Assembly: GCA_019775845.1 (NCBI GenBank)
Contig: JADQAV010000044.1
Span: 310,001 to 374,000 of the forward strand
DNA from: Myrmaecium sp. VS I D KN 1
Lineage: Eukaryota; Ascomycota; Dothideomycetes; Valsariales; Valsariaceae
DNA length: 64,000 nt
Direction of reading: 5' to 3'
The notes beneath the pieces were generated by a model. It was not told the origin of the DNA, made no database searches, and worked only from the letters and a program-made list of their open reading frames with translations. Each line of letters starts with the position of its first letter. Within the stretch, counting starts at the first letter, position 1. Position numbers and translations under genes: made by a program. Below are positions 9,408 through 61,428 of the stretch, in pieces.

Positions 9408-12400
9408 ATGCTGTCCGCCTTTGTCAGCTTCGCTTGGGATCGCTATTGGGAATGGGCGGCGCCGGACGCATATGGGGAAGCCAAGCCTGCCCTCAAACAG
9501 AAGACGACGAGAGCGTCTCGCCGAAGCAAGGCGATTAAAGTGGAAGAAGAGTCGTCTCAACCTGTCGCCCATATCAATGAGCGCACTAGCGCAGCGGCAG
9601 TCAAATCTGACAAGTACGATTCGGCCTTCGACGACTCTGACTTGGGGGACTCGGATCTTGAAGAGGCGCTTCGAAAGTGTGAAGTCCCATACCCTCGCCT
9701 GCCTTCAGTGAGCTCGTCCAGGACCCCTTCCTCAGATGAAGTGAGCGTGGATGCACCACATCAGAGCTTGAATCGGAGCGTCGCCGTAGGACCTGCAAAC
9801 TTCTCAAAAGCGCCACTGCATGTAAGATGGGAGTGTCAACGGGCTGCAGAGCACTATGGCATCCCAATCCTCCACATCACACGACAATATGATCCGAGCT
9901 GGCAGGACTACGATGTGTTGAAGAAACATTTACAGATGCATTGCCCGCCGGGCCACGAGCCGTTGCCAGCCATGTCAGCGCCCGATGTCTGGGAAGCCGC
10001 ATGTAACGGCTTCAAAAGCATTTGTCTCTCCGGTAGCTTTGACGCTTCCTCCCTCCACAAGAACCCGCCCATATTCAAATTGACGTTGAACGCACTGAAA
10101 TACACCGAGGGCAAGCGGTCGAACCGCTTTCAGCGTCGGTTCGGCTTTGAAAACGTACTCAACCTGACGCTGCCTTATTTTCACTACGAGAAGGTCAAGG
10201 GTCGAGACCCGCAGGTGTTCTCTAAAGCGCTCGTTCAGTGGCTCATGACAAAGAAGCGGCTGCTGGGTAAGACATGGAGGGTCCTTCAAATAGATGAGTC
10301 AAGCGGGTCGAAGAAAAACGGCAGTTGGGGCGGCGCTGGCAAGAGAAAGAAGCAGAAGGTCTACGAGATTGTCCTGATCGCAGTAAATGATACAGCGTCG
10401 CCGTACAGTCCACCGGATGCGCCGACGTACAGTTTCGCGGATGTGCTGGAGTGGTACTTCGCCCTTGGCCAGAACGAAAAGATGCCGTACCTGAAGCTGT
10501 ACTCGCGAGTGGCGCTGGGCCTGTCCATGACGCATCCGTCGTATGTCTTCAAAGCTACTGAGATCCGGATGGGAGAGGATGTCCTGGCGGACGGTACTGC
10601 CGAGGACAAGCGATTCAACGAAGCACGTCGTCCGGTTGTTCTACGGCAGTGGATGGCTTTTCAACGGCACTATGACCCGGGCTTCAAGTGCGGTAAGCGA
10701 TCGGTGATGAACGACGGTTGTAGCTATATCTCCGAAGCCGCGGCGCGTGCGATCTGGCGCGCCTTGGGTCGAACGGACCCGTTGCCAACGCTGTTCCAGG
10801 GCCGCATTGGAGCGGCAAAGGGAGTGTGGACCGTGGTGGCCGGTGACGAGGTCTGGATCCAGATCACGCCGTCGCAGCGAAAGCTGCAGCCGCATGCGCC
10901 GGAGAGCCCTTGGGCGGACGACGAAGCCCATCGGACGTTCGAGGTGGTCAACTGGTCGAAGCCGCCCACCAGCAGCGCGACGCTGAATCTGGCTTTTCTG
11001 CCCATCATGGCTGATCGAGGTGTGCCGTGGCAGGCCATCGAATCGATTGTGCGGCAGCACTTCAGCCTGGAAGAAGAGATCTTTGACTGCATCGATACGA
11101 GTGAGGAATTCCTCTACTGGCTGTCGCGCCGGGGACTGTCTTCTCAGTTCGAGGCCAGCATCACGAATGCCACGTACAGAGGCGGTCTCCCGCTGAAGAA
11201 GACGCTGAAAGCGGCCTGCATGTGTCATGCTGGATTCGTTCCCCGGGAGTTCTCGTACCTGGCGAGGCTGACAAAAGAGATTGTGGATGACTATCTCACA
11301 TCCTTGGTCGACAAGTTCAGCATCCCTCTGCCTCGGTCTGTCAATCTCTACGCAATTGCAGATCCTCTCGGTGTCCTCAACCCGGGCGAGATTCATGTAT
11401 CGTTCTCCGAAGGGTTTCTTCCAGAGGGCCTTGAATATCCCATTGCCTTTCTCAACGACGTCGATGTGCTGCTGGCGAGGTTCCCATGTAACCGCAACTC
11501 CGACATCCAACGCGTCCGCGCCGTCTACTACCCCGAGCTCGCCGGCTTTCCCAACGTGGCCATCTTCCCCGCGAAGGGGTGTGTCCCCTTGGCCGAGCGA
11601 ATGTCCAACGGCGACTACGATGGCGATACGTTCTGGATCACCTGGGAGCCGTCTCTGGTCCAGCCCTTCCGCAACGCGCCGCCGCCGTGTCCGCCCAAGC
11701 CTGAAAGCTACGATATCACCCAGGACCGGCGACCGGTATGGGAAGTTCTGGCAGAAGGCGGGACCGACAACCTGCTCCGCGAATGCTTCACCTTCATCCT
11801 CCAAGACGACCTCCTCGGCAGCATCACGTCCACGTTGAAAAAGCACGCCTACGCAACCAACTGCGTCCGATCCAACACCCTCGACTGTCTCGCCGACATG
11901 GCCGACCTCCTCGTCGACCGCAAGAAGCAAGGCTACCACCTCGACCACCGAACCTGGCTCGCCTTCCAAACCCGCCACAACATCGCCCGCTTCACTAAAC
12001 CCGGCTACGAGCTGAGCCTCGCCGAACCCAACCCCACCTTCAACCCCTCCCACATCCTCGACCACCTCAAATTCGCCGTCTTCAAGCCCCTCAAAAACGA
12101 CCTCCTCCAGCGTCTCGACACCCGCCTGGCCACCGCCCGCCCCGACGACGCCGATCTCGCGCAGCCGTACTACCAGTGGCGGCAGCAAGCCGCCAGCGAC
12201 CCGGCCCTCGAGCGCGAGCGCCAGCACCTCCTCTCCCGCCTCGCCGACCTCGCCCGCACCGCCAGCGCCCGCACCGCCAGCTTCGACGACTACACCGACC
12301 GCGTGAGTCGGCTGGGGGAGGCCTACGCCGCGCTCGTCCCGCTCGACCGGGATCTGCGCCGGCACTGGGTCGATGAGGACCCCACGCCTGGCCCGGGTCG

Positions 12401-12683
12401 ATGGGAGCTGCTGAAGGCGTCCACGCTGTACTCGCAGTGCCTTCGTCAAGGTGGTGGCCGGCTGCCGGATGGACATGTGGTGAGGGGGAATGCGGATGTG
12501 CTGTTTACGTGGGCGGGACGGGAGTTGCTGTTTTTGAAGGCGTTGGCGCGGAGTCCACGGGCGTTCCCAGTGTGCACGCCGGTGTTGGATACGTTGAAGC
12601 CGAGAAGGAGGGCGCTGGTGCGGGTGCTGGAGGATGGGGAGGAGGAGGAGGAGGAGGAGGAGGAGGAGATAGGCGAGGACTAG
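9408..12683 (+). CDS. RNA-dependent RNA polymerase (QDE-1/SAD-1 family), single exon
   Basis: The 1091-residue frame begins at the ATG at 9408. It carries the cellular RdRP core, including the catalytic DxDGD box, here DYDGD at residues 736-740 within RMSNGDYDGDTFW. Preceding blocks such as PLGVLNPGEIHVSFSEGF and the DVLLARFPCNRNSDIQRV-AVYYPEL segment are family hallmarks. The N-terminal 130 residues are basic or low-complexity and likely disordered; the C-terminus ends in a Glu run (EEEEEEEEEEIGED). Known members make double-stranded RNA from single-stranded or aberrant RNA for Dicer and Argonaute in quelling, meiotic silencing or antiviral RNAi. It is shorter than Neurospora QDE-1 and SAD-1. 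Which paralogue it is cannot be told by eye. No intron is visible, and the coding sequence looks intact. Confidence 0.95.
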   Translation: MLSAFVSFAWDRYWEWAAPDAYGEAKPALKQKTTRASRRSKAIKVEEESSQPVAHINERTSAAAVKSDKYDSAFDDSDLGDSDLEEALRKCEVPYPRLPSVSSSRTPSSDEVSVDAPHQSLNRSVAVGPANFSKAPLHVRWECQRAAEHYGIPILHITRQYDPSWQDYDVLKKHLQMHCPPGHEPLPAMSAPDVWEAACNGFKSICLSGSFDASSLHKNPPIFKLTLNALKYTEGKRSNRFQRRFGFENVLNLTLPYFHYEKVKGRDPQVFSKALVQWLMTKKRLLGKTWRVLQIDESSGSKKNGSWGGAGKRKKQKVYEIVLIAVNDTASPYSPPDAPTYSFADVLEWYFALGQNEKMPYLKLYSRVALGLSMTHPSYVFKATEIRMGEDVLADGTAEDKRFNEARRPVVLRQWMAFQRHYDPGFKCGKRSVMNDGCSYISEAAARAIWRALGRTDPLPTLFQGRIGAAKGVWTVVAGDEVWIQITPSQRKLQPHAPESPWADDEAHRTFEVVNWSKPPTSSATLNLAFLPIMADRGVPWQAIESIVRQHFSLEEEIFDCIDTSEEFLYWLSRRGLSSQFEASITNATYRGGLPLKKTLKAACMCHAGFVPREFSYLARLTKEIVDDYLTSLVDKFSIPLPRSVNLYAIADPLGVLNPGEIHVSFSEGFLPEGLEYPIAFLNDVDVLLARFPCNRNSDIQRVRAVYYPELAGFPNVAIFPAKGCVPLAERMSNGDYDGDTFWITWEPSLVQPFRNAPPPCPPKPESYDITQDRRPVWEVLAEGGTDNLLRECFTFILQDDLLGSITSTLKKHAYATNCVRSNTLDCLADMADLLVDRKKQGYHLDHRTWLAFQTRHNIARFTKPGYELSLAEPNPTFNPSHILDHLKFAVFKPLKNDLLQRLDTRLATARPDDADLAQPYYQWRQQAASDPALERERQHLLSRLADLARTASARTASFDDYTDRVSRLGEAYAALVPLDRDLRRHWVDEDPTPGPGRWELLKASTLYSQCLRQGGGRLPDGHVVRGNADVLFTWAGRELLFLKALARSPRAFPVCTPVLDTLKPRRRALVRVLEDGEEEEEEEEEEIGED

Positions 12684-37411: not shown

Positions 37412-39720
37412 TCACCACACACCACTCAAACCGACCGGACCCGCGCCACGAATCACACGCGCATGGACCCCTTCCTCCATCTCCGCTCGCTTGTAGATGG
37501 TCGACGAGCCGGTGTAGTTGCCGGACTGGGTGGTGAAGTCGCCTTCCTGGGACAGGTTGGCGACGCGGCCGAGGAGGAGCTCGAGTTGGCGGTAACCAGC
37601 GCCGGGGGCGTATCCGGGGAGTTCTGCCAACGACGGAAACCGAGTAAGTACAATTCTTTTCCTCACCGGTGATTGCAAGAACAGAAGAGGAGAAAAGAGG
37701 GGAACGGGAAAGAGAAAAATACAAAAAAATAAAAACGTACCATGTCCCGCAAGCTGAACCCAGTAAAACGTCAGACCGCGCTCGGCCGTCCAGCCGCCCA
37801 CGACGCCGGCCGCGCTGAGTGCGCCGGCGTTATACTCCGGATGGTAGGGGACGTAGAAGGGCTGGGTGGGCGGGGTCTGGAAGCCCTGCACGCCGTTCCA
37901 GGTCAGGTTCTGGAGGGCGAGGAGGGTACCGTTGGTCGGGAGGATGTAGTCGAGGTTACCGCTGCCGATGATCACGTTGTTCGTCGCCTCGATCACTCGC
38001 TGGAGGACGCCGTCGAGGGCCGGGCCGAGCGAGGTGTCGCCCAGGCTCTCGTTCTGCGTCCCCAGCCCGAACACGTTGGTCGAGGAGCACTGCTCCCAGT
38101 AGGTGCCGACGGGCGCGTTGATGGCGGCTTGCACGTCCGTCCGGTTGAAGTAGACCGTCGCGTCGGGCGGGGAGTAGTCGCCCGAGTTGACGATCCCAAG
38201 GACCGAGTACGGATGCGGGCACGTCTCGGTGATGTGGTAGATGTTGAAGCAGGGGTTGCTGAGGAGCACAGCCGCGTACACGTCGTCCCACAGGTCGCAG
38301 CGGTAGTTGTTCGCCTCGCTTGGCGTGGGGAGCAAGGGAAACGGTCCCGGCGGCGGCGGAAAGGTGAGGTATTTCTCCTGGTAGGCCGTGAAGCCGCACT
38401 TGTCGGATTTCTCCTGGATGGCGGCGGTGAACGTATCGTTGAGGAAGCTGCAGACGTTAGCGATCACGTCTCTCGGGCGATGAGTGATGAGGGAAGGAAA
38501 AGTAGCAATTAGGAAGGCGGGAAGGAGACGCACAAGAGATCAGCCCAGTAGTTGAGGAAGGGTACGACAGGTACTGCGAAAGGTCAGTGAGGTGCAACGC
38601 TCAAGATCACGAAGGGTGCAAGCGTACCCTCCTGCTGGATGGTTCCGTCCCCGATGATGGGGTCGTTGATGGCAACTAAAAATGGACCGGTCAGCATCCA
38701 CAAGATCACCGCGGTGCAAGAGGAGTTGCCTCACTCCCTTTCAGATTGTAATAATCCGTGTCATTAGCCGTCAGGAAGGCATCCGCAATGTACGGGACGT
38801 AGTAGCTGTAACGTACAAGTCAGCATGCGTCAGCATGCGGGGAACAGGCCAAAAACGCAAGGAAAACAGGGACGTCACTCACCCAGCATACGACTCGCCC
38901 GTCACGTACACGTCCCAGCCGTGGACGTCGAAGGCCTCGACGAACTGCTTGTAGAACCCGATAAACTCCTGCCCGAGCTCGACCTCATTCGTGATATTCG
39001 GGACACCTTGACTGAAGCCCACGCCCACCGGCTGTTCCACCCACAGCATATTCGTGAGGTTATGCCAGCTGTAGGGGTTCGCCGTCGGCTCCAAGGTGCC
39101 CGCCTCCCACGTGAACGGGCCGTTCTCGGTGAGGAGACCACTCAAAGAGCTGCATCCGGGTCCGCCATTGAGCCAGATGGTGATCTCCTCGGCCGGGTTC
39201 TCGTTGATGGTCGGGAAGAACCTGGATTGGGTGGGTCGGGGAAACTTCTTAGCTCCTGTTTTTCACTTTGCGAGGAACGCGACTCGCGACGGGGATTGGG
39301 GCGACAGTATGTACCAGAAGAAGAGCTTGCGCGTCTCATTGGGGTCCCCGGAGATGGGCAGGAGGCCGGCGTAAGACTCGCCGACATCCCAGGTGACATT
39401 GGGAATGGCGCTGCCGTTGACGACGAACTCTGGGAGGGTGGGTGGGTTGTCAGCGCACGTTCGCAAATCGCACGCCACGCGGCGGAAAGCTCGCCAGACT
39501 CACTCTCGGTGACGTTGTTGAGGAAGGACGAGGCGCGCTTCTGCAGCTCCTGGTGCTGAAAGGGCTCGTGCAGGCTGTTCCTCTTCTCAACAATGGCGGC
39601 GTGATGCTTCTCAGCGCGCTTGAAGACGCGCATCGCGTTGCCGAAGTTGGCGCTGTTTGCGGCCACAGCGGGAGATGGGGCCAGCAGCAGCAACGACGAG
39701 AGCCACGTCAAAAGCTGCAT
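37412..39720 (-). CDS. Secreted serine carboxypeptidase (peptidase family S10), eight exons
   Basis: Minus-strand exons 39504-39720, 39315-39429, 38883-39221, 38735-38805, 38628-38675, 38534-38573, 37741-38447 and 37412-37623 give 582 residues with consistent phases. Residues 1-20 are a signal peptide ([20 protein letters not shown]). Family marks: [11 protein letters not shown] (oxyanion hole), [12 protein letters not shown], the nucleophile S221 in TGESYAGYYVPYI, D443 in [11 protein letters not shown], and H512 in [13 protein letters not shown]. The enzyme trims C-terminal residues from peptides at acid pH, in the vacuole or outside. Several N-glycosylation sites (NVTE, NVTW, NLTN, NDTD) are present. 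The His codon is split from its flank by an intron at 37624-37740. Confidence 0.95.
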
Positions 39721-41474: not shown

Positions 41475-42998
41475 TCACCGTGAAGCCCCCTCCCTCACCC
41501 TCACCGGCTCCAACTCCACCACCTCCTCTCCCTCCTCCCGTTCCGCATCATCATCCAGATCCTCTTCACCCTCCCCCTCCCCCTCACCCTCCACCTTCAC
41601 CTTGACGAAGACAGCCCAAAGGCCCAGATCATAAACGACACGCAAGAGGCCCGCGGCCGCGAATGCGAGGCCAAAGCGACCGGACTCAGCCAAGCCGCCC
41701 GTCAGGCTGGGCCCAACAGTGGCAGCGAGGGTGCGCAACAGACCCGTGAGGCCCATGACGGCGGTGCGCTCGTGGGGGGGAACGACGGCGGCGATAAAAG
41801 CAGCGCGGGGGGCCTGATCCATGCTGTTGAGAGCGGCGCGGACGAGGAGGAGGGCGACGGCGGCCCAAGGGTGGCGGGGGAGGGGGAAGAGCAGGACGGC
41901 GACGGAGGAGGGCAGGTGGGTGAAGACCATGGTGCGGATGAGGCCGAGGCGGCGGGCGAGCGGGGCGGCGAGGACGGTGGAGAGGCCGCCGAGCAGGTGG
42001 GCGGCCAGGAAGATGCGGCCCAGCGTCGCGGCTGGCAGGGCGGCCGGGAAGGTCGCGGTCAGGTAGTACGACGTGAGGGCGTAGCTGGCCATCCCGTCCG
42101 CCAGCGAGTCCATCGCCAGCAGCAGCCAGAGCGGCCAGACCGTCCGGAGGGTCGGGCGGGAGATGCGGGCGAAGACGGAGGTCGACGGAGAATAAGAAGC
42201 CGATGGCTGAGGGACGTGACGACTATCTTCCGCCTCCTCCTCCTCCTCCTCCGCTTCCGCCTCCCGCAGCAATCCCTCCGCCGCCTCCGCATCTCTCCCT
42301 TCCGCCCGCATACCCGCCTCCTCCTCCCCCTCCCTCCCCTTCCCCCGCCGCCCGGCATCCACCTCACACCGCTCGCTCATCGCCCCCGCGCACGCCATCC
42401 CCAGCACGCCCATCCCAACATACCCCGCAAACACGACATGCCCCGCCCTCCGCAGGTCCCATCCCTTACCCTCCCGCAGCGCGCGCACCACCGCACCCGC
42501 CGCCGCCGTCCCCCCCGCCGACCCCAACGTCGCCACCGTCACATACCACGTCAGCACATCCGCGCGCGTGCGCGGGCCCGCCAGCTGCGCCAGCACACTC
42601 TCCTCCACCGCACGAAACGGACCAAAATCGCCCCCAGTCACACTAAGCACGCCCGCCGTGGCGGCACAGAGAAGGAGGACGTAGCGCTCCGAGACCGCGA
42701 AGGCGACGCCGGAGCCCGCCATCAGCGCGCCGCCCAGCAGCAGCACGCGGCGCCGGCCCCACCGGTCGGCGACCAGGGTCAGCGCGAGCGAGAGCGCAAG
42801 GTCGCCGGCCAGCGTCAGCGTCATGAACAGCCCGATCCGCGCGTCGGACGTCCCCAGCGCGGCCAGGAAGCTGGCCAGGATGAGGCTGCTCCCGCCGTGC
42901 GCGATCATCCGCCCGCCGCGGGCGAGTAGGATGAGGTAGGCGTCCCGGCCGGCGGCGTGGAGGGCGGGCAGGCCCAGGGTGTGGAGGAGGGAGACCAT
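41475..42998 (-). CDS. MFS transporter of unknown substrate
   Basis: A single-exon frame; I choose the ATG at 42998 because the protein then begins at MVSLLHTLGLPALHAAGRDA, directly before the first conserved block, while the longer frame adds about 100 low-complexity residues. The 507 residues give twelve hydrophobic segments in two halves. MFS motif A appears as DRWGRRRVLLLGG after TM2; GPFRAVEESVLAQL follows TM4-5. The halves are joined by a Glu-rich loop (GLLREAEAEEEEEEAEDSRH). The second half has WPLWLLLAMDSLADGMASY and NSMDQAPRAAFIAAVVPPHERTA, which I know from a group of uncharacterised fungal/bacterial MFS proteins. The C-terminus is strongly acidic. The substrate cannot be told. Confidence 0.85.
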   Translation of the reverse strand: MVSLLHTLGLPALHAAGRDAYLILLARGGRMIAHGGSSLILASFLAALGTSDARIGLFMTLTLAGDLALSLALTLVADRWGRRRVLLLGGALMAGSGVAFAVSERYVLLLCAATAGVLSVTGGDFGPFRAVEESVLAQLAGPRTRADVLTWYVTVATLGSAGGTAAAGAVVRALREGKGWDLRRAGHVVFAGYVGMGVLGMACAGAMSERCEVDAGRRGKGREGEEEAGMRAEGRDAEAAEGLLREAEAEEEEEEAEDSRHVPQPSASYSPSTSVFARISRPTLRTVWPLWLLLAMDSLADGMASYALTSYYLTATFPAALPAATLGRIFLAAHLLGGLSTVLAAPLARRLGLIRTMVFTHLPSSVAVLLFPLPRHPWAAVALLLVRAALNSMDQAPRAAFIAAVVPPHERTAVMGLTGLLRTLAATVGPSLTGGLAESGRFGLAFAAAGLLRVVYDLGLWAVFVKVKVEGEGEGEGEEDLDDDAEREEGEEVVELEPVRVREGASR

Positions 42999-44060
42999 CG
43001 GTAGTGGTAAGTGTTGGGCGGCGAGAGAGGTTGAGGGCGTAGTCGTGTGCGCGGGCGGCTCGGAGGTGCTGTCCAGAGAGCGGAGTGTGTCGTTGATTCC
43101 TTTCGGACCTGGTCGCTCTTGTATCGTGACCTTTTCAATGCTAATGGATCGTTTCAATCCTTTTTCCCAGCTCTTCCTTTCCGTCAGAATTTTTACCAGG
43201 TGGGTGCGCTTGGTGTTTGCATTGAAACATGACAGACGAGACGGAGGCCATCCACACCCATCCAGGGCGGGGAAACCTCTTGACGCCATTGTGGTGGGGC
43301 CTTCCATCCATGATTTTCGCCGTCGATCCCGGATGCGGCGGCACGTCGAGACACGTGACTGGTGCTGCTGACGTAAGCAAGGCTTGTGAATCTCGCTCGT
43401 ACTGTCCTTTTCCGAGCGAGCGAATATTGAGGGTGAGAGATCACCCAGCTCCAGAGGAGAACCGAAAGATGAGGAGTGCCATTCCGACGTGGTGGGATGG
43501 AGACAATATGCTTCTCCAGTTGAAAAAAAAAGAGGAACATTGAAGGATATTCTCGAGGAGGAAGTAGGATCTTCGAGGTAGCGAAGTACATGATATGTCA
43601 GGAGACGTGCAGGGAATGCACATCGCCTATTTGATCCAGCGGGTATCGACAGTACTTGAGCGTCTATCTGCTCAGTGTGAATGTTTATAGAGAAGTGCGA
43701 TATACCTACCCCGCCTGATCACCATCCTATCCGCACCGCTGCTAACCGCGCCCGGATCAGCCCGCCAGCCGACTACCAATGGTGTTGACACCTCAGCCTA
43801 ATCGGCCCGTTAGGCCTTGGGCCAAAGCGGATCCACGTATTCACGTATCTGTCATTTGCGACCGTACATATACAGGTAACCTCGAGCAATCAGGATCTGT
43901 AAGTTCAACTTCTCATAGCTGGCAAAGCTGACTACCTTGTAATCAAACCTACATCGCATTCACATCAACGAAAGTCATCAAATCCAACGACAAACCTCCA
44001 AAAGAACACAGTAAGAACATCCATCCATCCCTCCCCCACCCCACACCCACCCCCAATCAA
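42999..44060. other. Intergenic between MFS promoter and ribonuclease gene
   Basis: No gene is recognised. The right end is CA/TC-rich (CATCCATCCATCCCTCCCCC near 44020), probably the 3' region of the ribonuclease gene. Confidence 0.4.
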
Positions 44061-44700: not shown

Positions 44701-45626
44701 GGTGTATGAGTTGAGATGCGCAGAAGGTGATGATTGGGCTTGGCTTTAGAGTGTGAAAGTTGATGTCTGTAGGGTGTGAGGTTTGAGCTTGCTGTCTTTG
44801 AGTGTGAGGTAGCAAGTGGAAGAACCGGAGGCTTAAATACTTCACTACACTCCTAGAGATCACCCTTATCCAGCTCTACAAACACTGCATCCATCTTCCT
44901 GTAAGAAGCCGAAGGACTAATTTTAGAAGAGATATAACCTTAACGGCCAACTCGCAGAGTCCTTAAACATAAGCTTACTCGATCACATAGCCCGCTCACA
45001 GTCTCGGCATCCATCATCACTCCCGAGAAGGACCGGCTATGGAATTCCTTTTCGCAGGCGGTTTTCTAATTCCACAAACAATGTGACGCGAGGAGAGGTT
45101 GGTGTCTTAGTCACAGAAACTATCTTCAGAACACAGCTCAACGGTGCGAGTATACATCTGAGTAAGACGACTACCGTGCTTGGTGGGACCATAAAGCCCA
45201 GCTTCCTTCGCGAACGCAGATCATCGTACGGGAGGCAGTGATCGGATCCTTCCGCTGTTGGTTGCTGGCTCGGCGTGGGGGCAGGATCGGCGTCATCGTA
45301 TGGCGAGAGAGAAAATGTCTGCTCGGTGTGCACCAACACTAATACCAACCAGAACAAAGGTCCAAAGACCCTCAGCCTGCCGATCCGGCGTTGGTGGTCA
45401 GCCGGAACGAGACTGCCAGTGTTGGTGGCGGTGTCGATCCGCTCCGCTCCGCCCCCGCTTCCGGCCCCCAGCGGCTGTGCTGCCGTGTTGGACTCGACGT
45501 CATCTCACCCCTCCCTCCGCTTCGATCATATAGAGACCATAAATGCGCCGACATAACATCAATCAAACCACCTCCACTTCAACAACCCCAAATCCAAGCA
45601 AAAAGATCAATTTTAAACCACGCGAA
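44701..45626. other. Intergenic, divergent promoters
   Basis: Between the start codons of the ribonuclease gene (minus) and the DUF3632-like gene (plus). No gene is seen. An ATTTAAG-like TATA in minus sense at about 44834 may serve the ribonuclease. Confidence 0.4.
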
Positions 45627-46580
45627 ATGGACCACTTCACCCTCCTCCCCCCTTCCCTCTCCACCGTCCCCTCCTCCTGGTTCAACGCACAACACACCCG
45701 CTACCCCCTCACATCCCCCCTCCTACGCTCCTGGCTCGACACCGCCATCACAGAGCTTGAAGCCTACCAGCAGGATCACCTCTCCGCCCGCGCCGCCGCC
45801 GCCCGCATCACAGCGCCTATCTCCACAAGCCCAGTACCAGATCTCGGCACGTACGCCGACGAGCTGGCCGGACTCCCGCAGCTCTGGCAGCTCCTCGTGG
45901 ACGCCCTGATCGAGTGGCCCGACAGCCAGCGGGGCCGGGTGGTGGCGCTGCTGGTCGTGATCGGGGAGGTGGATGCGCCGATCCATCGGGGAGAGGCGAC
46001 GGAGGAGGATGGGGAGACGCCTTTGCGGTGGCGGGGCTTGCCGTATTTTGAGGCGATGTGGCGGGATCGGTTTTGGATGGCGCCCGGGCAGATGGTGAGG
46101 CGGTGTGGGGAGGAGGAGGGGAGGAAGAAAGCGAGGGAGGTGTATTTGAGGAGGATGGAGGTCGAGGCGAGGTTGGTGGAGGCCGGGGTTTGGAGGTTGG
46201 ATCGGGGGGTGAGGTTTGTGATTTCGGTGTTGGAGGGGGAAGTGAGGCTGGATGATGAGCAGAGAGTTGCGAGGGATGATGCGGAGGGGGAGGAGCAGCT
46301 GGTGGTGGACTTCCATGTGCCGGCGGTGGCGATGTGGTTTCGGTGGTGCGGGATGCAATTGTGGGAGGCGGTTGTTGTGAGAGATGAGCTCAGGCAGTGG
46401 GAGAGGAGAGACGTTCCGGTTGTGGCTCGTGAGTTTGCGGAGCTAAGGAAGAGGTGGGAGTTCTGGGAGGAGAAGATGGCGGAGGTGGCAGCGTCCGTCC
46501 CGGATGAAGCTGTGAGGAAGGCTGCCCAGGAGGCCATGGTCCGTATGCAAGAGATAGAAGAGGCTGCAGGAAAGGCATGA
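45627..46580 (+). CDS. DUF3632-like hypothetical protein
   Basis: A single-exon frame; the ATG at 45627 (CGAAATGGACC) is preferred to an upstream one at 45543 because the extra 28 residues are low-complexity. The 317-residue product is mostly helical. PLLRSWLDTAITELEAYQ and LWQLLVDALIEWPDSQRGRV are typical of the fungal DUF3632 family as I recall it, followed by LRWRGLPYFEAMWRDRFWMA and a C-terminal coiled, Glu/Arg-rich part (WEFWEEKMAEVAASVPDEAV). No signal peptide or membrane helix. Function of the family is unknown. Codon use changes from C-ending in the first third to G-ending later, common in this window. Confidence 0.8.
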   Translation: MDHFTLLPPSLSTVPSSWFNAQHTRYPLTSPLLRSWLDTAITELEAYQQDHLSARAAAARITAPISTSPVPDLGTYADELAGLPQLWQLLVDALIEWPDSQRGRVVALLVVIGEVDAPIHRGEATEEDGETPLRWRGLPYFEAMWRDRFWMAPGQMVRRCGEEEGRKKAREVYLRRMEVEARLVEAGVWRLDRGVRFVISVLEGEVRLDDEQRVARDDAEGEEQLVVDFHVPAVAMWFRWCGMQLWEAVVVRDELRQWERRDVPVVAREFAELRKRWEFWEEKMAEVAASVPDEAVRKAAQEAMVRMQEIEEAAGKA

Positions 46581-49651: not shown

Positions 49652-52559
49652 GTAGGTACCCGCCGGGATTTGGAACCGTAGTCGAGGGCGAAGGAACGGG
49701 ATTATACCAAGCGATGAGCAAACTGATACGGATGTAGTAGTAATGCGGATGTTGCGTCTCCATCCGGAGAAAGGGAAAGGTTTTCGTACACAGTACTGGA
49801 CTCGTGTGTGCCAGAGAGTCCGACAGCTTGACAGCAGGGTATTATATCGCATTGTACAATAGCGTGCCTGATATGATGGGAGAGAAAGACAGCGAGCACA
49901 CCAGGTGTGTCCTTAAGTCGGCTCGAGGGACTGGGCGTGCGACAGGCTCGACGGTGTAAGGCTCGCTGGCCGTGAGGAACATTCCAGGAGGAAGACGATG
50001 CAGTGCGCATGTATCCTCATTAATAAGGCGAAAAGGAGGTTGAATTGTATGTCATGTATGCCTGCTGTACAAGGGCAACTTGCTCTGGATGACTGAGCGG
50101 GAGGAGCTTGCTCGGACGTCCGACACGTCTTGGCCGACAATAGGGGAGGAGAGGGGTGGTGTTGCTCATGCTGCGGCTGGCAGAGGGCGCGGATGCTGTG
50201 CTGGTCTGTCGATACTGAGGGAGGTAGGGCATCGGAAGGGCCCTCACTTGCAGGCGGTAGGGCGAGGCATTCGACCAAGAGTGTCGAACGCCTTCCTGCA
50301 GTCAAGATGGCGGAGCTCAAGCAAGGTGGACGTACTTTGCCGAAAGGAAGACAACGAAAGAGATACGTTCAACGTTCGGCAGTGTGGCGAAGCAGGAGTT
50401 ACAATCTTGTTCCAGTCGTTGTGCGGTGAGTGAATAATCTTCCAGAATATTCCTGAGCGCAAGGATGTTCCTGTACTGCATCTGCGCTTGGATCAAAAAG
50501 AAAACCCAAAGCTTCATTACTGCACCCTACATTACCCTTTCCCATGGCACTGGACTCTTGTTGGACCGTAGGGAGGGTACGTACCGTACAAGAGCTCCAA
50601 GTACCACCGAGTCGGAGGACCGGGCGTGTCTGACTCTGTGGAATGAGGACAATTGTTGGGAGAGGTCTTCTGCTCGAGGAAATTGGTAATTTACTGAGGA
50701 CTAGATCAAAGGCCGAGGAAGCATGCGCGCAGGAGACCTTTGCGGTTAATGACTCCCTGTCCTCGACAGGTGGAAGGGTCACTCATGCTCCCGCGAGCTC
50801 ACTCCTCCAACATGCCATCAATAACACCATGGGTGAAGAGCGAACGAGGAACACGCAGGAAACGGAAGGCCTGAGCACGTCCGTCATAACGAGGACGTGG
50901 GAGTCCATATCCGAAGAATGCCCTTTACGTACCCAAGACCAACCAACACCCCTTTTCATGGCATCCGAGTGTCGCCGAAAAGAGCACTGTGGTCGCCGCT
51001 TGACTCCTCCCTTCCTCCTTCCGTGCAACGGAGGGATCGCACAAGGTACCAGTTTCCAGGAGGCGCCGAGAGAATGCACTCACGGTCTTCATCAGCTGTT
51101 TGCGCAATGCCCAAACCTTACGTCCAGCTCCACCCTCATTCCATCGCTGGCCCTTCTCTGCTTTCCTGTGGTGTCTACCATGTGACATGGCGCCATTCCG
51201 TCCGACCTTGATGTCTCGCCGTCGCTCCGGAGGCCGTCTATGTCTCTTCTCCTGAACGAACACCTCACCGCTGATGCATTGTTGTTTGCGTGCACGCGCG
51301 GGGAGATCCGGAAGCATGCGCGAGTTTTCCAGCGAGACAGCAGGCCTACTGGCGAGCGCGGACAAGGTACCGCTCCATCTGCTGCGCCGCGCGTAGACCA
51401 GCTTGCGTATGAAGTGAAGAGAGCGATCAGCGTTGGTCGTCCGGAAGCAGCGGATGGACGATCATATCGTGCTGTTCAATGAGAGCATCTCTCTCGACCA
51501 AAGGAGAAAGCAGAAGTGACCCTGACCCAATCGTGTGCGAGGCGCGGAAGCTGCCGAAGTGCTCAGGAGCTTCGCTGCCTGCAAACGCGTCGCGCTGGAC
51601 ACGGACGGTCAGCAAGGACAACATAACAAATACAATAAGTACGGACATCCTGGTACGCTGCTGCATAGCCTTGGGATCTGCACTTCCCCTCGCACGTCAA
51701 CGCTCACGTACCTGGTGTGCGAGTATTCGTGGTGAGCGTGCGGGTCGTGTCTGGTTGCGCAGCTGGGAGGAGCGAAAGGAGGAAGTGATGTGCGGATGGC
51801 GTTGGGGTTGTGGGGATGGATGCGGTTGCTGCCTCCACCACCCGACGTCAATAGAGTTGAAGGAATGGAGAGCGAAGAAGAGAGTGAAAAAAGGAGGAAA
51901 AGAGAGAGAATGAGAGAGGTTGAGAGGCCGAAGAGGCGGACGGGCCGAAAGAGTGAAGTGGGCAGGACAAGTGGGCAAGTGGGCGGGACGCGCATTCAGT
52001 CCGCGGATGGTGACGCCAGCTTCCGGTTACGTAAGCCCTCAGCCTTGCGCCGCCTGGACCAATCAACGGCCCTTCCCCAGCTTCTCGGCTTCAATGTCCT
52101 CCCCCTCGCCGCCTCCTCCCGGTCTCTTGGCAGTCAACGTCCCGAATACGCATAGTCAGTCATTGCGTACGCCGTCAACAGTGAGTGTCATGGCGTGCCC
52201 GCCAGCAGTCTCCACCGCACTCACTCACTCGTCGCCAGCGGAGTGAGCTACCCAGCAGCCTCCTCATCCATCCCGCCGACGGGCAGTCCACCTTCTGCAA
52301 GGTACCGTGCAGCTTCAGGTACGCAGCACTGCCAACCTCCAAGGGAGACCTCCTTTGTGAATGCAGATCGCTCTTCAAGAGACATGTATATAAACCCGCT
52401 GGAGATGCCCCTTTGAACACAGCATTCCAACACTCAACTCACAACACTTCCAATCACTACAACAACCACAACAACCACTTCCATCGCTTCATCCATTTCA
52501 TTCACTTTCCCTTCGTACTTTCACTTCCAACCAACCAACCAACCAAGTCCACCACAACC
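49652..52559. other. 2.9-kb stretch without a clear gene, upstream of the Kex2 repeat gene
   Basis: Several overlapping open frames on both strands (for example near 50640-51185 and 51480-51913) have no recognisable domain and poor codon bias, so none is called. The right end is the promoter of the repeat-protein gene, with a TATATAAA at 52387-52394 and a CA/TTC-rich leader. Confidence 0.4.
52387..52394 (+). promoter_or_regulatory. TATA box of the Kex2 repeat-protein gene
   Basis: TATATAAA lies 166 bp upstream of the ATG at 52560 and is followed by a CA-rich leader, typical of a strongly expressed fungal secretory gene. Confidence 0.5.
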
Positions 52560-54047
52560 ATGCGCTACTCTACCGTCTTCATTGGTCTCGTCGCCCTCGC
52601 GGCCGCCAACCCCATCAGCGGCCCTCCCAAGCCGGAGCGGACCGACATCGCTCCTGCGAACCCCCAGGGGCCCCTTCCCTCCGCCAGCCTCCAGGGCCCT
52701 CCGCCCCACGTCACCAAGCGGAGCGAGCAGCAGCAGGGCCCACAGCCGCAGGACGGCAAGAAGCCCACCGACCAAGGCCCTCCGCCACCCCGCGTCACCA
52801 AACGCAGCCAGAAACAGCAGAAGCAGCAGGCTCCTCCTAAGCCCTCTGACAAGAGCGGCGACGTTCCTCCTCCGCCACACGTGACCAAGCGTGCTGAGCA
52901 GCAGCAAGACCAGCCTCAGGGCCCTAAGCCCACCGATGGCTCCGTTCCTCCTCCCCCTCCCCCTCACGTTACCAAGCGTGAGGCCGAGGAGCCAAAGGGT
53001 CCCAAGCCCACCGATGGCTCCGTTCCTCCGCCTCCTCCCCACGTCACTAAGCGTGAAGCTGGTGACGAGCAGCCCAAGGGTCCTAAGCCCACCGACCAGG
53101 TCCCTCCTCCGCCGCACCTTACCAAGCGTGCTGAGCAGGAGCAGCAAGCTCCTCCCAAGCCTACCGACCAAGTCCCTCCTCCGCCGCATGTTACCAAGCG
53201 TGAAGCTGGTGACGAGCAGCCAAAGGGCCCCAAGCCTACCGACCAGGTCCCTCCCCCTCCTCACGTAACCAAGCGCGCCGAACAGGAGCAGCAAGCTCCC
53301 CCCAAGCCGTCCGACAAGAGCGGCGACGTTCCTCCCCCTCCTCCCCAGGTCACTAAGCGTGCTGCCGACGACGAGCAGCAGCCCAAGGGTCCCAAGCNNN
53401 NNNNNNNNNNNNNNNNNNNNNNNNNNNNNNNNNNNNNNNNNNNNNNNNNNNNNNNNNNNNNNNNNNNNNNNNNNNNNNNNNNNNNNNNNNNNNNNNNNNN
53501 NNNNNNNNNNNNNNNNNNNNNNNNNNNNNNNNNNNNNNNNNNNNNNNNNNNNNNNNNNNNNNNNNNNNNNNNNNNNNNNNNNNNNNNNNNNNNNNNNNNN
53601 NNNNNNNNNNNNNNNNNNNNNNNNNNNNNNNNNNNNNNNNNNNNNNNNNNNNNNNNNNNNNNNNNNNNNNNNNNNNNNNNNNNNNNNNNNNNNNNNNNNN
53701 NNNNNNNNNNNNNNNNNNNNNNNNNNNNNNNNNNNNNNNNNNNNNNNNNNNNNNNNNNNNNNNNNNNNNNNNNNNNNNNNNNNNNNNNNNNNNNNNNNNN
53801 NNNNNNNNNNNNNNNNNNNNNNNNNNNNNNNNNNNNNNNNNNNNNNNNNNNNNNNNNNNNNNNNNNNNNNNNNNNNNNNNNNNNNNNNNNNNNNNNNNNN
53901 NNNNNNNNNNNNNNNNNNNNNNNNNNNNNNNNNNNNNNNNNNNNCCCTCCCCCTCCTCAGGTGACCAAGCGCGCCGAGCAGCAGGAGCAGGCTCCTCCTA
54001 AGCCCAAGCCTACTGGTCCTGCGGCGCCGAAGAGCTGGAGGGCTTAA
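52560..54047 (+). CDS. Secreted proline-rich Kex2-processed repeat precursor, with assembly gap
   Basis: The ATG at 52560 begins a signal peptide (MRYSTVFIGLVALAAA). After a spacer, ten visible copies of P3-6-(H/R/Q)-(V/L)-T-K-R follow, each ending in the dibasic KR that the Golgi protease Kex2 cuts. Spacers alternate between two kinds, EAGDEQPKGPKPTDQV and AEQEQQAPPKPTDQV, so the unit is a two-part higher-order repeat of 24-25 residues each. Residues just after KR are often EA, AE or AA, which a Ste13-like dipeptidyl aminopeptidase could trim, as in pheromone precursors. The repeats lack cysteine and the WC…C core of alpha-type pheromones, and lack aromatic residues, so it is neither an obvious pheromone nor a typical ustiloxin-like RiPP. 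A run of 547 N splits the repeat tract (53398-53944). The end is PKSWRA. I call it a KEP-type (Kex2-processed repeat) precursor of unknown peptide. Confidence 0.85.
   Translation: MRYSTVFIGLVALAAANPISGPPKPERTDIAPANPQGPLPSASLQGPPPHVTKRSEQQQGPQPQDGKKPTDQGPPPPRVTKRSQKQQKQQAPPKPSDKSGDVPPPPHVTKRAEQQQDQPQGPKPTDGSVPPPPPPHVTKREAEEPKGPKPTDGSVPPPPPHVTKREAGDEQPKGPKPTDQVPPPPHLTKRAEQEQQAPPKPTDQVPPPPHVTKREAGDEQPKGPKPTDQVPPPPHVTKRAEQEQQAPPKPSDKSGDVPPPPPQVTKRAADDEQQPKGPKXXXXXXXXXXXXXXXXXXXXXXXXXXXXXXXXXXXXXXXXXXXXXXXXXXXXXXXXXXXXXXXXXXXXXXXXXXXXXXXXXXXXXXXXXXXXXXXXXXXXXXXXXXXXXXXXXXXXXXXXXXXXXXXXXXXXXXXXXXXXXXXXXXXXXXXXXXXXXXXXXXXXXXXXXXXXXXXXXXXXXXXPPPPQVTKRAEQQEQAPPKPKPTGPAAPKSWRA
53398..53944. other. Assembly gap (547 N)
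   Basis: A run of N lies inside the tandem repeats of the Kex2 repeat-protein gene. Both sides are in the same repeat, so true copy number is unknown and the gap size may be an estimate. Confidence 0.99.
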
Positions 54048-54952
54048 GGGTCTTCGCCTTTTTTCTTCCTGATCTGAACTGAGGGGGTTTTTCTTTTGTT
54101 TGGGTGGGTGGAGATAGATGGAGATAGGCGAGATGAAGTGGGGATGAGATGGTGGTAGGAGTAGGAGGAGGAGGAGGAGGTGTAGGGTAGGTAGATGATA
54201 GAGAATAATAGAACGATCTACCTACGAAAAAGCAACAGACCCACTGTTAGTTTTTCTCTTTTTCTCTTCTCTATGTTCTTTCTCTTCTCTTTTTTCTCTC
54301 CTCTTTTTTCCTTCTCTTTTCTCCCTCTTCTCCTTTTTCTCTTCTTTCTTCTCTTCCCAGATGCTCATTCCAAAAGTAAAGTCAAACAATAACTTCCCTC
54401 AACACCCAGCTCGTAGAAAGAATGGGAGGTTGGCGGGGGGCAATACGTTGCGACTCAACAACTGAGCAGATCGCGACAAGAAACCTTCAAAATGGGAAGC
54501 TCCGCTCGCAGCAGCAACGTATGGGACGAGACCAATGACACAAGCACAGCGGACGTCCGAAAGACAGCCGATCCCCGTCGCCAGACACATAGAAACGGAG
54601 AAGATGCATACGATACAGTGTACGTCTACCTACACACCCAAGAACAACACCGACCGATGAAAGAGAAAAAATGGAAAGCCAAGCAAGACTCAAGAAGTAA
54701 AAGAAACGCACTTCTGACTCAGACCAGCCGTCCGTCCTGTCACAAGAGGTTCTCATCGATCATATGGCACGTTCAATTGAAAGTCCAGATGGGATTGTAT
54801 CATTATTTGCTCAGGATCAAAACTGGGTATCAAGCTCTCCCAGACCAGAAGAAGAACAACAAAACAACGACAAAGAACGAAATCCATGATATTAAACACC
54901 ACCACCACCGTTTCGCACACAACACGAAGACACCCAAACATCACTATCGGCT
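54048..54952. other. 3' region of the repeat gene with a long polypyrimidine tract
   Basis: From about 54246 to 54360 the plus strand is almost all T and C in (T)n-CTC-type words and ends in CCCAG, much like an oversized splice acceptor or a microsatellite. A GGAGGA repeat lies at 54161-54181. No gene is recognised. Confidence 0.5.
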
Positions 54953-56320
54953 TCATTCGCGCCAGTACACCGGGATGGAATACGGCGTGCCCACGGTAGC
55001 GTTCAGGCCTCGCGACCGCAGCTTCGCGCCCTGGTCGTGCACTAACGCTTTCTCCTCGATGTCGAAGCACGGTCTATAATTGGTGGGCACTCCGGCTTTG
55101 TCCTATATAACATCAGTTTCCGTCGGTCCTTTCGAGGTCGAAAGAGAAGAAGAGGAGGAAGAAGACGAGAGCGACAGACCTTTCAAAAGGGATACAGCGT
55201 CTTGGAGAGCATGTCACAGAACATGCCCTCCAGCACCGATGCGTAATCCGGCCCGAAGCTCGCCGGAGACTCGCCCAGCTCCGAGGCGCCTTGCGGCGGC
55301 GCAGCCGGCGAGTCGGCGATGATGACCGTGTGGCCGTGGTCCAGGGGTCGGCAGGCTCCTCACCATGATCGCCGTGCTTGCCATGCTTACCATGCTTGCC
55401 GTGCTTGCTATGCTTGCCGTGCTTGCTATGCTTGCCGTGCTTGCCGCGTTTGCTGTGTTTGCTGTGCTTGCCCTTCGTCCGCTTTGGGGTCGGCACATTG
55501 AACGTGGTGCCCGTGCAGAGGCTGAAGTTACCCGCGGCCCGTTTCGGGGTGACGATGTACTCGTCCGAATCGACCATTATGCTTTGTGCCTGACCGTGGT
55601 AGCCCGTCCCGTCGAGGTACGTGCACCGGGGCTGGTAAGGGAGCCTTCTCTTATTGTCGTCCCCAACGGTCAGGCCTCCGTGGTACCAGGGCATCCCGCA
55701 CTCGAAGCCCACGTCTCCGAACCAATGCACAGTCTGGCCATCGGGTTGCTCGAGTGCTGTGAGGGGAGGAAGTAAGGCTGGTCAGCGGTTCACGTTCGTG
55801 GGGTGGGGATGCGGGCCGCGCCTTACTCATCGCGTTAATGCAGATGGTATCGTCTTTGCCCTCAATCACAAATTTGCGGGCATTCTCCTTCCTGGATGGC
55901 TCTCCGTAGAAGTCTTGGTAGCCCGCGTCGCGGATCTTGGGCGGCCCTGTTAGAATGTTAGTTAGGGCAATCAGTGACGGACGCCACGGGAGGGAACGGA
56001 CCTAGAGACTTCGAGAGGATGTTGTCGTGGTAGTTCGACAGAAACGTCACATGGCCTACCCTGCCGCCGAAGTGCACGCCAGGAATACCGGTGGCGACGT
56101 GCACACGGAGGAAGCCATACCTCTTTCTCGTTTGTTCCTTGGATATAAAGTTTAATAAGGCTGACGTCACCCCGATTACCGTATTGAACGCTCCCAACCC
56201 CTGGGTGACCGCGGTCGCGAGGCTCATGTGTGCTGCGGCTTCATCGACGGTGTTGGCTACGGTATGCGTGGAGAGCAGCAACACCAGAAGAAGGGACACG
56301 ACGATAAGGTGATACATCAT
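54953..56320 (-). CDS. Hypothetical secreted protein with HGK/HSK repeat tract, four exons, frame problem
   Basis: The ATG at 56320 starts a signal peptide (MMYHLIVVSLLLVLLLSTHTVA). Exons 56002-56320, 55827-55946, 55180-55756 and 54953-55102 are inferred from GT-AG sites. Blocks include VHVATGIPGVHFGGRVGHVT, KFVIEGKDDTICINAM, VHWFGDVGFECGMPWYHGG and a lysine/histidine/glycine tract (about 55378-55465) of 9-bp units giving HGKHSKHGK. After the tract the sense moves to another frame (HTVIIADSPAAPPQGASELG, then VLEGMFCDMLSKTLYPF) near 55340, then meets a TGA at 55183-55185 before the last exon (NYRPCFDIEEKALVHDQGAK). With one extra base all splice phases agree. So the copy is either mutated or affected by a sequencing slip in the repeats. 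Family unnamed; I recall similar secreted proteins in plant- and insect-associated fungi. Six or more cysteines. Confidence 0.6.
55378..55465. repeat. 9-bp tandem repeat coding for HGK/HSK
   Basis: Units of CTTGCCGTG or CTTGCTATG (plus strand) repeat about nine times and code for alternating His-Gly-Lys/His-Ser-Lys triplets in the minus-strand gene. Such tracts slip easily in replication. Confidence 0.85.
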
Positions 56321-58789: not shown

Positions 58790-60094
58790 TCACTCCGTCC
58801 TCTGCTCCAACTCATCGTACTCAGGCAACGTCCAGTTCTTAATACGCTCGCGCTCAAAGAACTTCGCAACAAGATCAAGGCGGAACAGCGCAGCCAGCCA
58901 GGCGATGAAGTTCATGCAAGCGATACCCACAGCCGAAGTAGGAAGCCAGCCAAAGTGATCCGGTGTAATCCCATCCTGAACCTGCTCCATAAACGGGCGA
59001 AAGCGGTCCTCATACGCCTTCAGCGCCGCAGGGAGGTCCTCCGCGCTTCCACCACGGGCAGCGAGGCGCGCGAGCTCGCCAGCGAGGATGTAAGCGCCGA
59101 CGAGGGCGGCGGTGGTGCCCATGCCAGTGACGGCGGAGGGGCAGTAGGCGGCGTCGCCGAGCAATACGACGTTCCCGGCCGACCAGGCGGGCAGGCGGAC
59201 GGTGCCGAGGCGCTCGAGGTAGAAGTCGTCCGCGCGGCGCATGGCGGCGAGGAAGTCGTCCGCGCCCCAGCCGGCGCCGCGGAACGCCGCGGCCAGGGCG
59301 GCCTTCTCCGCCGCGACGTCCCCGCGCGGCACCGCCTGCAGCTGCGCGCCGCAGGGGCTCTTGTGCACGTGCACGTGCAGGTAGACCTGGACGGCGTCCG
59401 GGCTCTGGCGGCGGGTCATGACGGCCCGGCCGCCGGTCGCGACGTAGCCGCGGACCTCGTAGCCCTCGCCCGGCGCGAGCGGCGCCGGCATCGTGAACGA
59501 GGCGATCCACATCCCGAGGAAGTTCACCGGCTCTACCTCCGGCATCGACCTGGCCAGCATCAGCCGTCGCACCCGCGACCACTGCCCATCCGCCCCGACG
59601 ACCAGATCGAAGCGCTCCCGCTCGCCGCCCTCATACACAACCTCCACCCCACGGCCGAGGCCCAAATCCTCCATCCCCTCCAGCGTCTTTCCAAACACCC
59701 ACCGCACGCGCTCCCCCGCCCAGTCGCGCAGGATGCGCACCAGATCGCCCCGCATGATCTCCCACTCCGTCGAGAAGCCCGCCGCCGCGGGACTGCTGCC
59801 GCCCGCTTTCCGCAGCGGGAACCACGCCACCGTCGCACCCGACGACGCGTTCAGCAGCCGCAGCCCGCGCTCCGGCACCACGTGCGCCCGGAAGGTGGCT
59901 TCGAGGCCCATCCGTCGCAGCGTCGTGATGCCGTGGCCGCGCAGGTCGACCTGTTGGCCGCCGTCGCGCAGGCCGGCGTGTCGCTCCAGGATGGTGAGGG
60001 AGAAGGAGGCGGAGGGGGCGGAGTGGGCGAGCCAGCCGGCCAGGGCGGGCCCGGCGATGCCGCCGCCGACGATGAGGATTTTGAGGGGTGGCAT
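58790..60094 (-). CDS. FAD-dependent monooxygenase (PHBH/TetX-like)
   Basis: A single-exon frame of 434 residues. The N-terminus has the dinucleotide-binding motif ILIVGGGIAGPALAGWLAHS and an acidic/Arg end of strand 2 (ILERHAGLRDGG). The group A flavoprotein DG motif appears as VVGADGQWSRVRRLM, and the GD motif as VVLLGDAAYCPSAVTGMGTT followed by a helix (ALVGAYILAGEL). These three motifs define class A flavoprotein hydroxylases, which use NAD(P)H to hydroxylate aromatic or polyketide-like compounds; TetX-like members inactivate tetracyclines. Substrate unknown. The C-terminus has a hydrophobic stretch (ACMNFIAWLAALFRLDLVAK) that could rest on a membrane. No cluster partners sit next to it. 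Confidence 0.93.
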   Translation of the reverse strand: MPPLKILIVGGGIAGPALAGWLAHSAPSASFSLTILERHAGLRDGGQQVDLRGHGITTLRRMGLEATFRAHVVPERGLRLLNASSGATVAWFPLRKAGGSSPAAAGFSTEWEIMRGDLVRILRDWAGERVRWVFGKTLEGMEDLGLGRGVEVVYEGGERERFDLVVGADGQWSRVRRLMLARSMPEVEPVNFLGMWIASFTMPAPLAPGEGYEVRGYVATGGRAVMTRRQSPDAVQVYLHVHVHKSPCGAQLQAVPRGDVAAEKAALAAAFRGAGWGADDFLAAMRRADDFYLERLGTVRLPAWSAGNVVLLGDAAYCPSAVTGMGTTAALVGAYILAGELARLAARGGSAEDLPAALKAYEDRFRPFMEQVQDGITPDHFGWLPTSAVGIACMNFIAWLAALFRLDLVAKFFERERIKNWTLPEYDELEQRTE

Positions 60095-61428
60095 CGGCAG
60101 AGAGGGGGGAGGGGATTTGCTTCGGTCGTTTATCTTCTTGATGGTTTCTTGGGGAGTTATGTTTGTTGGTTTCAGAGCTGGGGTGTGATATGCTTTCCGT
60201 GAGAAGATCCGATGGAGACAAGCAGTGAAGAAAAAAAAGAAAAAATGAGAAAGTAAGTACTACGCCTCGTGCAACCCTATCATTATAACTATCCCTCCCG
60301 ATCCTCCTCCTCCTCCTCCTCTCGCGCGGAGTCATCCTCTCGTACGGTCGGGAGCTCCTCCGTCTCTCGTACGGGAGCGCCCCTCCGACCCGACCGGCAT
60401 GACGGCCATTATCCATCGCCGTCTCCGCCACGCCCGGACGAAGGATTCCACCACCTCAGCCACCCAACTCTTTCCGCCCAGTCGTCCTGTGGCGCCCAAT
60501 GAATGGCGAATGTTATTGGCGCAGCACTGGAGTTTGTATTTGGGTTGAGGAGGAATGGGAAGAGGATGATTTACGGCTCTGTGTCGATGGTCTATGGGGT
60601 GATACTCCTCTCTCTCGCTCTTTCTTTATTTCCTCTCCCCTTCCTCATCTATTATAAAAGCCTCAACAAGGACAGGAAAAAGAAGCCAGGGTAAAAGCAA
60701 GTACAAGTGGAATATCTTTCATCTATATATCCCTGTGGACTCATATAAGCATCATATCCGGGAACCGCGGGGAATGTTCCTTTCCATTAATCCCCCGCCT
60801 ACCAAGCCCTTCAAGAGAACCACAGATCCATCCTATCGTACATACATGCACGCTTCTCCTCATCGTTCAGGGGACCTTTTCGATATGGGGAAAATCCTCT
60901 GGTGTTTCGCTTTACGCATATGAGAATTCTATATTTCCTCTTTTTTCCTTTGCCTGATTTTTCTTTTCGAGCGGTTCTCTCCTTCTCACTCTCTCACTCA
61001 CCGCCATCACTATTCAACATGTTCCCAATAAAATATTTGAAGCATATATTCTATAGTGGTCAGTAGTAGGAAACTCTCTTTCTCTCTTCTTCTTAAGTCA
61101 ATTTGCTGAAGAAAGGAGAAAGGCGGAGAGAAGCATATACCTACATATGCACCTATGCGAATCGAGGGTTAGGTTGTGGGTTGGGCGGAAGGGTGTGGGG
61201 GCAACAATGTTACACCTCTCTTTTCCCCCACATTAACCCCCTGTTGAGGTGGAGATAGGGTGGTATCGTGTGGTTTCTCGTTTGCGCTTGATGTGGGGGG
61301 GAGGTGTTAGGGAGCAAGAAAGTGGGGCTGGCTCGCTTCGTTCGGTTTCATTGGTTTTATACAGGAGTTAATTTCTGATCATTGGTATTTATGCTTTCTC
61401 TAGAGGTGAATATTCCTCATTCCTAAGT
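60095..61428. other. Intergenic, monooxygenase promoter and gene-free DNA
   Basis: A poly-A-rich stretch at 60229-60246 and TCC repeats at 60303-60320 (minus-strand promoter side) are the only structures seen. No gene is recognised. Confidence 0.4.

Follow-up and report, generated by a model that had tools for sequence, protein, structure and literature searches.

A proline-rich, KEP-type repeat precursor with predicted Kex2 processing in the genome of Myrmaecium sp. VS I D KN 1

The stretch of DNA considered here (the window, 64,000 nucleotides) corresponds to bases 310001-374000 of contig 35 in a host assembly of 25.66 Mb and 66 contigs. On its forward strand lies a gene with an ATG at 52560 and a stop codon ending at 54047, a single open frame that spans a run of N and encodes a protein with first residues MRYSTVFIGLVALAAANP and last residues PPKPKPTGPAAPKSWRA. 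The features of the locus, with KR sites converted from residue numbers to window coordinates, are as follows.

52387-52393, + strand: TATATAA, a TATA-like motif found by pattern scan, 173 bases upstream of the precursor ATG
52560-54047, + strand: KEP-type precursor gene, intronless, 495 codons plus stop as assembled
52560-52607, + strand: predicted signal peptide, residues 1-16, MRYSTVFIGLVALAAA, proposed from its hydrophobic core and A-x-A context
52608-52721, + strand: pro-region, residues 17-54, to the end of the first PPPHVTKR
52716-52721, + strand: KR site 1
52722-53360, + strand: eight complete repeat units of 24-29 residues each, nested tandem arrays in the sequence
52800, 52887, 52974, 53049, 53124, 53196, 53271 and 53355, + strand: starts of KR sites 2-9
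53398-53944, no strand: run of 547 N inside the repeat array, frame kept on both sides
53945-54047, + strand: end of the last visible unit, PPPPQVTKR, then the C-terminal tail, AEQQEQAPPKPKPTGPAAPKSWRA, and the stop
53967, + strand: start of KR site 10

TATA-like motifs are numerous (48 in the window), so the TATATAA near the gene is weak evidence. A long CT-rich tract just downstream, at 54254-54356, is perhaps the 3' flank of the gene. A sigma-70/terminator scan of the window was set aside as not applicable to a fungus. The convergent neighbour (55113-56320, - strand) is predicted to have three exons and to encode a secreted protein in which a long Lys/His/Gly repeat of the KHGKHSKHGK type occurs; no Pfam family matches it above cut-off, Collagen appears only below threshold, and its 3' end is uncertain. 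The precursor gene is also flanked by genes for an MFS transporter (41478-43718, -), a DUF3632 protein (45543-46577, +) and a FAD_binding_3 monooxygenase (58793-60259, -). Farther away, at 9372-12680 (+), lies a cellular RNA-dependent RNA polymerase (PF05183, 345 bits), which we take to be of the RNA-silencing type.

The N-terminus of the precursor, MRYSTVFIGLVALAAA followed by NP, contains a best hydrophobic 9-mer, VFIGLVALA, with a mean Kyte-Doolittle value of 2.9, and an A-x-A cleavage context; the signal peptide proposed in the initial annotation is therefore likely. Outside this segment the protein is hydrophilic, i.e. it has the N-terminal signal without a membrane segment that is expected of a KEP. 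By inspection the C-terminus carries no hydrophobic stretch and thus no GPI-anchor-like or membrane end. The composition is of low complexity (27.6% P and 13.3% Q), and a Pfam search with the precursor returned no family at E ≤ 1. Cys is absent from the visible protein, as had been claimed; W, Y and F are absent from the array before the gap, as is any N-glycosylation sequon, and one W occurs in the C-terminal tail beyond the last visible KR.

The dibasic repeat ends described at the outset are borne out: ten KR sites are visible, nine before the 547-N run and one after it, and every one stands in [VL]TKR (VTKR nine times, LTKR once), with H ahead of seven of them, Q ahead of two and R ahead of one, and with P runs of 3-6 upstream. 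The units follow the scheme X(n)-KP[TS]D-X(n)-P(4-6)-[HQR]-[VL]-T-KR, with a variable N-terminal part, a KP[TS]D block present in all eight complete visible units, and a short linker. Two alternating spacers had been reported; the two types, GDEQPKGPKP.. and EQEQQAPPKP.., are indeed present, and their alternation is seen across units u5-u8, with Tandem Repeats Finder (TRF) placing a two-unit 147-bp repeat at 53031-53315. The repeat count is only a lower bound because positions 53398-53944 are N, either an assembly gap or a withheld stretch; the run could hold about seven further units at about 26 residues each.

Could such an array of KR sites arise by chance? Nine KR occur before the gap, whereas 100000 shuffles of the pre-gap part gave 1.17 on average and never more than 7; for this purpose the part began one residue past the likely signal cleavage site, and 9 of the 11 arginines in this mature part lie in KR. 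When KR is counted within one fixed two-residue context, the precursor has 9 (VTKR) and the next ORF in the window has 2, with at most 2 per context in the other 230 of the 231 stop-to-stop ORFs of at least 100 residues. The same count gave at most 2 in all 777 ORFs of at least 100 residues from a 200-kb sample of this genome that includes 7,045 bases of N. Those bases are the 7043 N that open contig 8 (L019 1-7043) and two more near base 94172 of the joined sample.

Substitutions were also compared between the units. Across the eight complete units, pN/pS is 0.068 in the last eight codons (the tail) versus 0.609 in the spacers; the KR codons of these units vary by silent change only (pN 0, pS 0.509), and over all 10 visible tails, again taken as the last eight codons, pS is 0.611 and pN 0.043. 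Spacer alignments are uncertain and the units share ancestry, probably with conversion, such that the pairs are not independent and the contrast between tail and spacer carries more weight than the exact pN/pS values. Between units, then, purifying selection acts strongly on the PPP[HQR][VL]TKR tail with its cut site. This conservation could reflect the docking context for Kex2 alone, without a function of the tail itself.

Codon usage provides a further measure. With weights from GAPDH and EF1a exons (found through PF02800 and PF03143, EF1a being separated from its relatives by eye), the precursor has a codon adaptation of 0.477, compared with 0.202 +/- 0.020 and a maximum of 0.290 among 5000 versions of the same protein drawn with background codons. 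The other window ORFs with 300 residues or more, 14 in number, all lie at 0.148-0.295, and of 64 background ORFs in that size class, some of them spurious frames, 1 exceeds the precursor. The reference set is small, at two exons, and GAPDH and EF1a themselves score 0.787 and 0.830, having also trained the weights. In other words, the codons of the precursor are shifted towards high-expression use, well below the reference genes, which suggests that the peptides are made in quantity. The precursor locus is a real gene under selection.

Is the machinery for processing such a protein encoded in this genome? The genome search found one kexin, with a P_proprotein domain, whose best solved relatives are the Kexin entries 2id4, 1r64 and 1ot5 at 590-593 bits. 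Kex2 specificity suits an aliphatic residue at P4, K at P2, R at P1 and a residue other than P at P1'; the visible sites have the first three, and P stands at P1' in none of the ten. A Kex1-like carboxypeptidase, encoded on contig 36, matches KEX1 (1ac5) at 221 bits, with carboxypeptidase Y next at 87, and has a C-terminal hydrophobic stretch by eye. A Ste13-type peptidase of the DPPIV family, presumably of the Ste13/DapB kind, has an N-terminal hydrophobic stretch by eye. The window also has a serine carboxypeptidase S10 gene (37742-39220, -), roughly 13 kb upstream of the precursor gene; it is distinct from the Kex1 candidate.

We consider it probable, on the strength of the sequence, that the gene encodes a secreted, Kex2-processed repeat protein. 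The signal peptide would route the precursor into the ER, and in the late Golgi Kex2 would cleave behind every [VL]TKR site, of which there are at least ten, after which Kex1 would trim the C-terminal K and R from the cut peptides; both steps are suggested by the sites together with the enzyme genes. The Ste13-type peptidase could then strip EA or AA from the segments after 4 of the 10 visible sites, a trimming that would be partial. Of the claim that KR is followed by EA, AE or AA, the listed dipeptides hold (EA three times, AA once, AE four times), and SE and SQ also occur. The related proposal of Ste13 maturation applies to the four XA sites and fails for AE, as the Ste13 signature given in PMC6339444 is XA/XP. 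Minus KR, the eight unit peptides have 22-27 residues, and the three complete EA units would have 21 if trimmed by Ste13, lengths that exceed the 15-20 residues first predicted. The product would be a mixture of linear, mostly acidic, P/Q-rich peptides of about 21-27 residues, probably disordered, that share the PPP-[H/Q/R]-[V/L]-T tail and the KP[TS]D block and differ in their N-terminal part. For example, one predicted peptide is the T-ended EAGDEQPKGPKPTDQVPPPPHVT, or the same without EA. All eight unit peptides are hydrophilic (GRAVY -1.3 to -2.1), with a net charge of -2 in six, 0 in one and +2 in one.

The initial annotation took the locus for a candidate undescribed system, and here we differ: the architecture is not new and places the precursor in the known class of KEPs, which was named in 2019 (PMC6339444) and has already been surveyed in 250 fungal secretomes, with 1193 KEPs in 226 species (PMC6339444), and in 1461 assemblies, with 7878 KEPs in 1345 strains (PMC7329392). 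Like these proteins, the precursor has a signal peptide and at least three similar, dibasic-separated units that fill most of the visible protein. Its units of 24-29 residues fall within the 3-352 residues reported in PMC6339444. Its eight units agree with the rule of Umemura (at least three repeats of 8-100 residues between KR, KK, RK or RR; PMC7329392), and the 213 of 279 pre-gap residues that lie in repeats exceed the 15% of the protein asked for by Le Marquer (PMC6339444), where agreement refers to count, length and protein share rather than to the authors' repeat scoring or FIMO. A conserved KEP core of Pezizomycotina, SPPHKT (motifs 3-6; PMC6339444, section 10), has PPH.T in common with the PPPHVT tail by eye; with a core of just six letters, this is a lead and not a sign of membership.

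The peptide sequence is a different matter. Among the 7995 protein database candidates that share most words with the pre-gap protein, none reached E ≤ 0.001, and in a second search, where X stood for all but the outer letters of each P or Q run, none of 4280 candidates reached E ≤ 10. In a sensitivity control at the same database size, the precursor found itself at 552 bits and residues 55-164 matched residues 165-279 with 104 bits (E 1.8e-24), the strongest individual segment having 61 bits (E 5e-11), with 0 of 200 shuffles listed; a relative as similar as these two parts of the array would thus have appeared, if among the word-picked candidates. As a coverage control in the same database, the Kex2 of this fungus gave 5020 matches of 7995 scored; among the 120 listed, Zopfia rhizophila led the named ones with 69% identity, and the top match overall reached 72%. 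The named species that we recognised among these 120 are presumably Dothideomycetes. Fungi are therefore covered by the database, though seemingly none closely related to the host species. Within the genome, the gene itself was the sole match among 12 candidates scored, and a DNA pattern of the precursor matched at three places, all in the precursor gene. A PDB search returned no chain at E ≤ 10. In the literature searched, HVTKR or PPHVT occurred only in one unrelated listing and SPPHKT only in PMC6339444, and PMC8329847, checked for KEP, just cites Umemura 2020. The earlier claim of a new peptide family may thus hold for the sequence, which is unlike any found here, in a comparison that lies outside the supplementary KEP lists of the 2019 and 2020 surveys. 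Orphan status is ordinary for the class, since 2560 of the 7878 KEPs in PMC7329392 are given there as having no homologue.

What, then, might the peptides do? Our tentative proposal, one that we hold to be possible and no better than that, is that they are abundant and have a bulk extracellular role, such as matrix or phenol binding, rather than acting as receptor ligands, toxins or surfactants; it draws on the raised codon adaptation, the scarcity of hydrophobic and aromatic residues, and the Pro/Gln-rich composition. Pheromone precursors, however, can also be highly expressed, which counts against codon bias as a basis for a bulk role, and a signalling role is nearly as likely, though doubtful in itself: the HVT-tailed peptides would, like alpha-pheromones, be ligands for a receptor of this fungus itself or of a partner. 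The multi-copy KR architecture, the EA or AA after 4 of 10 KR sites and the conserved tail beside a variable N-terminal part are all consistent with signalling, and ascomycete alpha-pheromone precursors likewise have KR-separated copies, some followed by EA. Those precursors carry a core such as W-C-x(3)-G-x(2)-C, whereas W, Y, F and C are all missing from the pre-gap array (the N run being unread), the Ste13 signature occurs at just 4 of 10 sites, and the peptides are longer and heterogeneous (21-27 residues); the earlier statement that neither a pheromone core nor an aromatic RiPP core is present is true of the visible repeats. Two alpha-pheromone core patterns had 4 and 6 matches in the genome versus 3 and 6 for reversed-pattern controls, i.e. 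chance level, and none of the loci inspected (4 of 4 and 5 of 6, the one at L041 being left out as its match crosses a stop codon by eye) held a KR-repeat precursor, such that the pheromone of this fungus was not found with these patterns. That result is not evidence of absence, because dothideomycete pheromones may depart from the patterns used. Additionally, section 9 of PMC6339444 describes basidiomycete KEPs that are pheromone-like and bear a STE13 signature without being sexual pheromones.

The remaining readings fit less well. The low-complexity, proline-rich composition would also suit a secreted structural or matrix protein in which KR stays uncut and the repeats simply form an extended proline-rich spacer, but we judge this unlikely: KR is kept amid many silent changes (which likewise disfavours the wall protein with unprocessed KR sites named earlier as the counter-case), most pre-gap arginines lie in KR, Kex2 is present in the genome, and the features that could anchor such a protein (a hydrophobic C-terminus, Cys, a sequon) are absent. 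Repellent or antimicrobial peptides, a role that had been suggested, are a poor fit and in our estimate improbable. Ustilago Rep1 does have Kex2-type repeats and a structural bulk product (PMC9769878), a likeness to our precursor, amyloid-like fibrils of Rep1 are cited as a KEP fate in section 3 of PMC9769878, and one KEP type bears the HMM name Apidaecin in Table 2 of PMC7329392. The peptides predicted here are by contrast strongly hydrophilic, with scarcely any hydrophobic residues, and only one of the eight is cationic. In one test covered by PMC9769878, synthetic Coprinopsis KEP peptides had no antibacterial activity; that source also describes kep knockouts without a detectable phenotype. 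The least probable reading, and a very remote one, is a RiPP precursor of the dikaritin type, with cores that UstYa enzymes would cyclise. The precursor architecture is shared, and the window also contains MFS genes and one for a FAD monooxygenase, but dikaritin RiPPs of the ustiloxin type have a Tyr-containing core and the pre-gap cores have neither Tyr nor another aromatic residue. Of the 61 further ORFs listed for the window, 28 were scanned and none was UstYa (DUF3328), and PF11807 gave no candidate genome-wide, a result that leaves absence unproven, as its control set was prokaryotic and gave no signal anywhere.

Returning to a bulk role, we can offer one more specific picture by analogy, a long shot by our own reckoning: the peptides may be a fungal counterpart of salivary proline-rich proteins (PRPs), made in bulk, cut by a convertase into many peptides, and released to bind and neutralise plant tannins and other phenols around spores or hyphae. 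The precursor is similarly P/Q-rich and, in the pre-gap array, aromatic-free, a matter of analogy and not of shown homology (no Pfam match); it differs in being mostly acidic and in its cleavage motif, and salivary PRPs are richer in P and G. According to PMC10454625, human basic salivary PRPs are P/Q-rich, aromatic-free and fully cut by convertases, and some of them bind tannins. For fungi, protection by mucilage through proline-rich proteins of high affinity for phenols has been suggested (PMC5431061). If the picture is true, the proline-rich, phenol-binding material suggested for fungal spore mucilage would have in this gene a defined genetic origin. With the selected part of the unit, the PPP[HQR][VL]TKR tail, identified, and with codons shifted towards high expression, the gene is well suited to decisive experiments.
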